Positions 28,624 through 30,829 of a DNA stretch of 64,000 nucleotides are shown one piece after another (position 1 is the stretch's first letter; each line of letters opens with the position of its first letter). The DNA comes from Hysterium pulicare CBS 123377 (taxonomy: Eukaryota > Ascomycota > Dothideomycetes > Hysteriales > Hysteriaceae), in the NCBI GenBank assembly GCA_000467715.1, contig AJFK01000112.1, positions 151,360 to 215,359 on the forward strand. Reading direction: 5' to 3'. The position numbers and the translations under genes were made by a program. Under the pieces are notes generated by a model. The model ran no database searches, was not told the origin of the DNA, and saw only the letters and a list, made by a program, of their open reading frames with translations.

Positions 28624-29622
28624 TCATGAAACCTGCCACTTCGTTAAGGAAAGCCTCATGCGCTCAACCTTGGCCTCCCACTTCTTGAGACCTGGAAGAT
28701 CGTGCTTTGTGCGTAAGCTCTGCAGGTTTCCAAGCAGGTTGTGGGCCTCCCCTGCCATTGACTGTTTTTGTACTGGCGTGATCACAGCGTACCGTACACA
28801 ATTTTTTTGAAATAAGCCTAGGGTTCGGCGCAACACCTCCACGAAATCGGATGGTCCCAGGCGTTTCGTTGCACCGAGCCATATCCGGTATTCCACACCG
28901 TAGTTCCATCTAATATCGTGATGAATGGGTTTGGCACACCATAGAAACCATTTTGAGAGGCGGTTGAGATGCAAAAAATTCTGCCTATGGCTATCGGGTA
29001 CTTCATAAAAGTTCCCGAGAAGGCGACATTCCGACCAAGCAGCCTTGCCAGCTTCTGGATCATCAATCCATGGGCGTCTCCACCAGAAGGATGGTTGATC
29101 AACGAACTGGAGCTCAAGAATGATTCCGTGGTTTCGTTTTAGATGAACTTGATGAGCGGGCGGTACCATCTCAACCCATTGCATTACCTTGTCGAATGAA
29201 TTGTCATAGATATACCCTGTGAAGCGGGTCTTGGCGTAGAATTCATACGAAGCTTCGTGGCGTAGGAGGCGACAGACGCGAAGGAGGGGCGGCCACAAAG
29301 TTCTTGATTTTTGACATCCAGTGCGTAGGTCAGCGCGACGATAGAATGGAGTGATGGGAACTACTGCATGTTGGGAAAGGACGAGCTCATATATCAGTAT
29401 TCTGACCTCGGGAGGCAGCTTCGATAGATGGCATTGCTTGCCAGGAAGAGGTTTGATGGTCAGCGGTTTCTCTAGTCTGGTATTGAGTCTAAAAGGTACT
29501 GGAGGTGAGTCTGCGAGCGCAAGGTTGCGTCGGACCTTCGGAGATTCCTTCGACCGGGAGGAAGATGTTGAGCGAGCGAACGAGGGGGATTTGGTAGGGG
29601 TATGTGGCATAGAAACATTCAT
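28624..29622 (-). CDS. LPPEVR-motif (2EXR/F-box-like) protein of unknown function
   Basis: A single exon gives 332 residues from the first true ATG at 29622. After a basic, serine-rich 60-residue lead, HLSKLPPEVRILIYELVLS matches the F-box-like / 2EXR type N-terminal helix pair that is hugely expanded in Pezizomycotina. Downstream, LLRVCRLLRHEASYEFYAKTRF is the usual second block of such proteins (a residue string V-C-x-x-x-x-x-E-A). The rest is unremarkable. The cellular role of this family is mostly unknown; a substrate-adaptor role is inferred only from the F-box resemblance. It is head to head with the CCDC25-like gene, 214 bp apart. Confidence 0.7.
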   Translation of the reverse strand: MNVSMPHTPTKSPSFARSTSSSRSKESPKVRRNLALADSPPVPFRLNTRLEKPLTIKPLPGKQCHLSKLPPEVRILIYELVLSQHAVVPITPFYRRADLRTGCQKSRTLWPPLLRVCRLLRHEASYEFYAKTRFTGYIYDNSFDKVMQWVEMVPPAHQVHLKRNHGIILELQFVDQPSFWWRRPWIDDPEAGKAAWSECRLLGNFYEVPDSHRQNFLHLNRLSKWFLWCAKPIHHDIRWNYGVEYRIWLGATKRLGPSDFVEVLRRTLGLFQKNCVRYAVITPVQKQSMAGEAHNLLGNLQSLRTKHDLPGLKKWEAKVERMRLSLTKWQVS

Positions 29623-29836
29623 TTTGATCTTCGCACTTGAAGTTTCTTTAGTTGAACATATTGTTGAGCATTTGGGGTGGAGTTTGGGGTGGAGATGTGG
29701 TAGACAGCACTCTTTCACAAAAGTTTTATCGATAAGCAAGCGGCTTCATGGCGGCAAGAAGTCAGCCCCACCAGAAAATAATCCAACCCAACAGCACTGC
29801 AAATTCCAATACCAAACACCTGAGATCTGCACAGAA

Positions 29837-30829
29837 ATGGTCTACTACTTCACCAGCAACGTAGTCAGTCCGTCTGCTTTCATATATGTTGGCAAAGATA
29901 AGGTAGAAAGTACGAGGGAATCTGTTCACATCGGCACGGCTATGCACTGATTGTGAGGTCTCAGATGAAGAATTGATCAAATACGGTCTCGACGAGGATG
30001 TCTGGTAAACATGGATCCTAATTTTACGTTTAAAGCTTTGGCTCTGACAATGCGTTACGGCGTTATAGGGTACGTAGTCCTGGTAAAAGGACGGGCATCT
30101 TGCACAAATTCATTCGTGATAGTTTCACGTCGACAACCTCTCGAGTGCCCACATATATCTCCGCATGAACGAAGGGGAATCATGGGAGGGAATATCTGAG
30201 CAGCTTCTAGAAGATTGTGCACAATTAACAAAAGCAAATTCAATTGAAGGTCTAACAGATGCCACTTCATTCCTTTTACAGAGGCTAAATTCCTCGAAGG
30301 GAATAAAAAGGACAACATCACCATCGTCTACACGCCATGGTCGAACCTTAAAAAGGATGGAAGTATGGCCGTCGGTCAAGTGGGCTTCAAAGACCAAAGG
30401 AAAGTACGTGAGCCAGTTTTCAGCCTAATTCTACCCCTTGCAGCTTCTCTAACCCAAACGCAGGTCAAGCGAATGCACGTAGTCCAGCGTGAAAACCCGG
30501 TCGTCAATCGTCTCAACAAGACAAAGATCGAGAAATTTCCCGACTTGAGGCAGGAGAAGGAGGCTAGGCAGAAGGAGCTGAGGCAGCGAGATAGAGCAGC
30601 GCAGCAAGTCCGGGTAAGCTTTAAGCCACCTTTAAAAATATGAGTATGTTAATGCCTCGAGCTGATTTTTGTTTTGCTGTAGCAAAAGGAAGAGGCCCGA
30701 ATCGCGAAAGAGAGGAAGGAAAAGGCCTGGCAGAGGGATCATGCGTACGATGATATGATGTCTGAGGAAAACTTGGCGGCATCAAGTAATCAAGATCGGG
30801 AACCGGACTTTCTTGATGACTTCATGTAA
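29837..30829 (+). CDS. CCDC25-like protein, NFACT-R (DUF814) domain
   Basis: Exons 29837-29909, 29965-30004, 30069 (1 nt), 30123-30249, 30300-30403, 30464-30613 and 30683-30829 give 213 residues, matching human CCDC25 (208) in length and layout. The NFACT-R domain fills residues 1-120: [53 protein letters not shown]-like [11 protein letters not shown], and [20 protein letters not shown] basic coiled coil ([20 protein letters not shown]) and the acidic tail DFLDDFM follow. The conserved Trp of EDVWFHVD is split TG/G: the G must come from a one-nucleotide exon at 30069, because joining 30004 straight to 30123 shifts the frame to an early stop. The S. cerevisiae homologue is Jlp2; a molecular role is not established there. 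Confidence 0.9.
30069..30069 (+). other. One-nucleotide micro-exon between two adjacent introns
   Basis: Intron A is 30005-30068: GTAAAC donor, CTGAC branch near 30044, TATAG acceptor. Intron B is 30070-30122: GTACGT donor, GATAG acceptor. The single G at 30069 completes the conserved Trp codon of the CCDC25-like gene. Removing 30005-30122 as one intron gives a frameshift and a stop 15 codons on. Sequential removal (A first, then B using the donor formed after it) is the likely route. Confidence 0.75.

Follow-up and report, generated by a model that had tools for sequence, protein, structure and literature searches.

The question raised by this locus is how one missing base is supplied when a CCDC25-like gene is spliced. 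The gene lies in a window of 64 kb, which is the whole stretch of DNA that was analysed and forms the end of one contig (C94) in a genome of 37.2 Mb assembled in 596 contigs. Its second exon ends with TG, and TTT opens the long exon that follows, so that one base is needed between them to complete a Trp codon (TGG) and to keep the frame. The 118 nt that separate the two exons are probably two back-to-back introns that would be removed separately, with the G at position 30069 retained as an exon of a single nucleotide. The gene is laid out as follows.

29837-30829, plus strand: CCDC25-like gene from start to stop codon, 213 amino acids when spliced, with an NFACT-R_1 domain (PF05670)
29837-29909, plus strand: exon 1, placed by the spliced frame and the alignment to CCDC25
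29965-30004, plus strand: exon 2, whose last bases, TG, are positions 1 and 2 of the Trp codon
30005-30068, plus strand: intron 2a, 64 nt, GTAAAC..CTGAC..TTATAG, phase 2
30069, plus strand: probable exon of a single nucleotide, G, which completes the Trp codon (TG/G) as its third base
30070-30122, plus strand: intron 2b, 53 nt, GTACGT..TGATAG, phase 0, with a good donor and a poor branch point
30123-30249, plus strand: exon 3' of the tandem introns, which begins with TTT and whose peptide ends in ...ANSIE, placed by the alignment and the spliced frame
30250-30299, plus strand: next intron, 50 nt, with a weak donor (GTCTAA), supported by the alignment of ANSIEG with ANSIQG
30300-30403, 30464-30613 and 30683-30829, plus strand: remaining exons, joined in the spliced frame

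The original prediction had divided the 118 nt into introns of 64 and 53 nt with GT..AG ends around a single G, and its coordinates, lengths and ends are exact. G30069 is preceded by AG and followed by GT, and the introns on either side are of workable size. Joining all the exons, G30069 included, gives a single open frame of 213 amino acids with the stop at its end. When the G is omitted, the frame reads ...DEDVC and stops after 52 amino acids, just as had been predicted for a single 118-nt excision; its inclusion restores the conserved protein. Keeping intron 2a in the message leads to a stop directly after DEDVW (38 amino acids), and keeping intron 2b leads to a stop after 70 amino acids.

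The spliced product matches the Pfam profile PF05670 (NFACT-R_1) with 114.9 bits, against a cut-off of 29.8, and aligns with residues 1-179 of CCDC25 in PDB entry 7eof, which we take to be the human protein, with E = 3.8e-60. This alignment pairs EDIWFHVDKLSSAH with the junction peptide of the tandem introns, and its sole gap is found elsewhere, near residue 15; EDVWFHVD at the junction aligns gaplessly to EDIWFHVD in CCDC25. Both the spliced frame and the alignment bear out the idea that the G completes the Trp codon of this motif. The same Trp is present in 5h3w, a solved structure of a distant relative (GELWFHAKD), and as far as the sequences seen here indicate, it appears to be strongly conserved among CCDC25-like proteins. 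It is not invariant in the wider family, and the earlier description of EDVWFHVD as near-invariant was too strong: Tyr occupies the position in a protein of the same genome that is presumably Rqc2/NEMF-like (DIYVHAD), and 4u5a, matched very weakly in the PDB (E 0.012), lacks Trp at the corresponding position. The gene for the Rqc2/NEMF-like protein (L001, 1501-1809; C112:23303-23611) is the only other PF05670 match among those listed for the genome. Directly upstream of the CCDC25-like gene and divergent from it, positions 28624-29745 of the minus strand carry a long open frame of 373 amino acids from stop to stop.

GT..AG stretches of at least 20 nt, with donors from 29980 and acceptors to 30180, were cut from 29965-30249 in one step or in two ordered steps, the latter including nested introns. 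A junction peptide with WFHVD was given by none of the 55 one-step excisions and by two of the 884 ordered two-step excisions, and these two consist of the same pair, 2a and 2b, removed in opposite orders. With introns of at least 30 nt, 41 two-intron parses are in frame and free of stops; one of them retains WFHVD, and it scores best of the 41 under an earlier splice model (-4.67, with the next at -13.86). One-intron parses with GT or GC at the donor, AG at the acceptor and a length of at least 36 nt remain in frame without a stop in three cases, none of which has Val-Trp together with FHVD. Within these ranges and sizes, no other canonical parse yields the conserved protein.

The same listing bears on the stwintron-like arrangement that the original prediction had named as an alternative. 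In stwintrons, two canonical introns also occupy one site and are removed consecutively (PMC5639578, PMC9024468), and they are reported from Pezizomycotina, including Leotiomycetes, with two cases in lipase genes that total 99 nt and 52 + 57 nt (PMC5639578). They differ in that the internal intron by definition splits a splice element of the external one, with no base kept between them (PMC5639578). Introns 2a and 2b flank a retained G and neither splits the sites of the other, and not one nested excision among the 884 ordered two-step GT-AG excisions yields WFHVD. The label is therefore not appropriate for this site, and a true stwintron here is scarcely credible. Recursive splicing at a zero-nucleotide exon was also considered and rejected, since the site reads AG-G-GT and not a bare AG/GT, and one base must be retained.

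For comparison with other introns of the genome, a self-trained gene finder was applied to 315 kb, namely the whole of C94 (215,359 bases) and 100,000 bases out of the 103,451 in C112. The CCDC25-like gene was excluded from its training. After early rounds that gave 42 and 72 introns, 112 introns were predicted, of which the 104 no longer than 150 nt serve as the comparison set; the gene finder itself picked its members, which biases this set to strong sites. Among the 112 introns, the median length is 54 nt and the 90th percentile is 82 nt, with 2 at 90-150 nt and 8 above 150 nt, and the typical size claimed for introns 2a and 2b (64 and 53 nt) agrees with this distribution. Their consensus is approximately GTAAGT at the donor and CTRAC at the branch point, which mostly lies 9-14 nt before the 3' end.

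Introns 2a and 2b score -1.55 and -1.91, respectively, values that 7 and 4 of the 104 comparison introns do not exceed. The next intron (30250-30299) scores -3.16, with 3 of the 104 as low, and its GTCTAA donor lies below all 104. A single intron of 118 nt scores -9.39, a value as low as that of none of the 104, whereas the sum for 2a and 2b in the final model is -3.46. The weakest elements of the pair are the branch points. That of 2a, CTCTGAC with a CTGAC core, lies unusually far from the 3' end, at 21 nt, and 2 of 104 score as low; in 2b a CTRAC core is absent and the branch-point score lies below all 104. In the earlier model, both fell below all 65 comparison introns. The weak branch point before 30122 belongs to any intron that ends there, whichever model is taken. 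The gene finder, which is blind to protein similarity, called no gene at the locus in its full run, and a local run under three settings recovered neither the G exon nor the following exon; under two of these settings, the frame ended at TGG-TAA.

A message that drops residues, or one that is read with a shift, would need no exon of one nucleotide. A donor at 30000 keeps the frame and would produce EDFHVD; excision of the 118 nt followed by a -1 ribosomal frameshift would produce EDVCFHVD. No donor among the 104 comparison introns scores as low as the one at 30000 (GTCTGG); the parse with this donor totals -12.33, and it would lose Val-Trp where CCDC25 has Ile-Trp, which reduces the Pfam score by 10.3 bits, from 114.9 to 104.6. 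No slippery heptamer was seen by eye at TGTTTC for the frameshift variant. There is only a slim chance that either of these accounts for the site.

The same message, with WFHVD exactly preserved, can also be reached with a single intron of 117 nt if its ends are non-canonical, either GT..TA (30005-30121) or TA..AG (30006-30122). Since both give the same TGG junction, mature RNA alone cannot settle the parse. However, splice ends of these kinds are very rare, the length would be unusual, and the GT-AG pair, which suits the site with introns of typical size, would be left unused, which makes a non-canonical intron most improbable.

The main rival, which requires no more than one ordinary intron, is an intron of about 118 nt, in plain phase 0 or phase 2, with one G missing from the assembly or from the strain. 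The base might have been lost where GGG is given as GG at 30004-30005, which is the simplest case, or where AG/G is given as AG at 30122; the assembled sequence at these sites is GTCTGGTAAAC and TGATAGTTTC. Errors in which a run of G loses one base are common, and the poor branch point tells against neither model, since the acceptor at 30122 is used in both. However, an intron of 118 nt would be out of the ordinary, falling in the range of 90-150 nt that holds 2 of the 112 predicted introns, and the rest of the 213-amino-acid frame is intact. In addition, the AGGGT that divides the 118 nt would have to be taken as a coincidence. An AGGGT flanked by 45 nt or more on each side was found in 804 of 40,000 intron-sized constructs, whose 92-nt interiors were drawn from regions without a predicted gene (some of which may contain genes that were overlooked); among 20,000 dinucleotide shuffles, 994 had one. 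A split with a splice score as good as that observed occurred in none of the 40,000 constructs and in 5 of the 20,000 shuffles. A match at exactly the junction where one base is lacking would not readily be expected by chance, and a missing base is, on balance, an unlikely explanation. The one-nucleotide exon, for its part, is confirmed as sequence and probable as biology.

AG-N-GT splits in general are not uncommon in long introns, which tells against the one-nucleotide exon. Of the 10 predicted introns that reach 92 nt, 3 contain such a split with at least 45 nt on each side, twice as AGAGT and once as AGCGT, and never as AGGGT. The pattern GTA-N(23-53)-CTRAC-N(5-25)-YAG-G-GTANGT occurs at 4 places in the 37.2 Mb, the site studied here included, compared with 24 in the reversed control. 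A stricter pattern that allows any middle base, and which the studied site does not match, gives 1 match compared with 6 in the reversed control. By both measures, such tandem sites are not enriched in the genome.

The single strict match is covered by no called gene and has no second acceptor above -4. The other three places found with the first pattern are unconvincing as one-nucleotide exons. The match on C328 (L031, C328:33579-33630, minus strand) lies in what is presumably an RPS26-like gene, where, with the junction judged by eye, it is the end of an ordinary intron followed by GTACGT as coding sequence for Val-Arg; it has no second acceptor above -4. The end of this intron, AG/G-GTACGT, mimics a one-nucleotide exon, and such cases call for caution in pattern searches. 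The match on C43, with a poor donor (-4.77), lacks a second acceptor above -4, and the one on C145 has a likewise poor donor (-3.23) and four candidate second acceptors (-2.39 to -3.77), in a place where no gene was called.

If the G is indeed retained, the site would be processed as two ordinary U2-type introns with a single G between them, each spliced as a separate intron-defined event, one after the other. Removal of 2a first would turn the end of exon 2 into ...TGG and create the next donor as TGG/GTACGT. Removal of 2b first would leave a 3' junction of TTATAG/GTTT, with an ordinary exon start. Either order would end in TG-G-TTT, with EDVWFHVD intact. The branch point of 2b is the poorer of the two, and 2a would be expected to leave first on this ground, although that order is a guess. 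Stepwise splicing had originally been deduced from the difficulty of defining an exon of one nucleotide. A stepwise course is reasonable, and either order works on paper, but poor exon definition is no obstacle in itself, as splice sites in Pezizomycotina are described as pairing by intron definition (PMC5639578).

Exons of a single nucleotide are very rare, but they are already known, and the CCDC25-like gene is probably an additional example. Among the closest known cases is that of the CYP621A genes of Fusarium, described by its authors as the first for a fungal gene, in which a single-nucleotide exon within AGGGT is reported with 18 RNA reads and at least 20 orthologues (PMC12940212). Like the CCDC25-like gene, CYP621A is a protein-coding gene of a filamentous ascomycete, and its G of AGGGT also belongs to a codon within a conserved motif. 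In both genes, the intervening sequence is about twice the length of the median intron (139 compared with 56 nt for CYP621A of F. graminearum, and 118 compared with 54 nt here). Within its codon, the G takes the middle position in CYP621A (Gly) and the last position in the CCDC25-like gene (Trp), and the former exon is supported by orthologues and RNA reads, whereas the latter is predicted from one genome.

In plants, single-nucleotide exons are reported from APC11 and VPS55, with that of APC11 conserved in diverse land plants (PMC8831610). Base substitution in protoplasts proved the APC11 exon of Arabidopsis, for which the authors favour intron definition and sequential removal (PMC4674806). 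As in the CCDC25-like gene, one nucleotide lies between two canonical introns of a conserved gene and is required for the frame. However, the APC11 exon is an A within an intervening sequence of 422 nt, and not a G within 118 nt. A further fungal case is found in the snoRNA host transcripts of the Candida parapsilosis group, where a single-base exon lies between snoRNA-bearing introns (PMC5033589). This is likewise one G between introns, for which the orders of removal are discussed with RNA-seq, but it belongs to a snoRNA host transcript of yeasts, and nested and recursive routes are also described there. No report of a one-nucleotide exon in a CCDC25-like gene was found in the open-licence literature, and the papers among the matches listed for CCDC25 deal with extracellular traps, with none on gene structure by title.

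A further one-nucleotide exon in a conserved fungal gene would point to under-annotation, as such exons escape gene finders, the one used here included, and read mappers. An ordinary mapper is reported to have missed one-base exons until they were annotated (PMC8831610). The CCDC25-like gene would also offer a clean test of intron definition and of the order of splicing in filamentous fungi.

How the exon arose can be addressed with more reserve. It is possible, as a tentative suggestion, that the G exon is a trace of intron movement: an exonic base next to the intron may have been lost and a chance AGGGT within the intron recruited, which would restore the frame and leave the Trp motif untouched, or a second intron may have been gained one nucleotide away from the first. 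A frameshift-rescue scenario has been proposed for CYP621A (PMC12940212), and together with relatives, the CCDC25-like gene would allow such an origin to be tested here. As 2a is a phase 2 intron and 2b a phase 0 intron, at sites one nucleotide apart, the loss of either would look like sliding by one base. If the suggestion is true, the pair is a living intermediate of one-nucleotide intron sliding, from phase 2 to phase 0 or back.

Several other sources were considered and set aside. A mobile introner is not indicated, as the 129-nt stretch around the site matches itself alone in the genome (E up to 1), and a 32-nt piece of 2a had no second copy in the genome with up to 3 mismatches. Relatives were sought in viral and prokaryote collections, and none were found. 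RNA structure holding the site was rejected as well, with an unremarkable fold: its z-score is -0.82, and 40 of 200 shuffles are no less stable. That one intron arose as a tandem duplicate of the other is contradicted by their local alignment, which scores 11 compared with a shuffle mean of 12.0, with 1431 of 2000 shuffles as high. The 3' ends of 2a (30061-30068) and 2b (30115-30122), CGTTATAG and CGTGATAG, are alike at 7 of 8 bases, a similarity that is not significant by shuffles.
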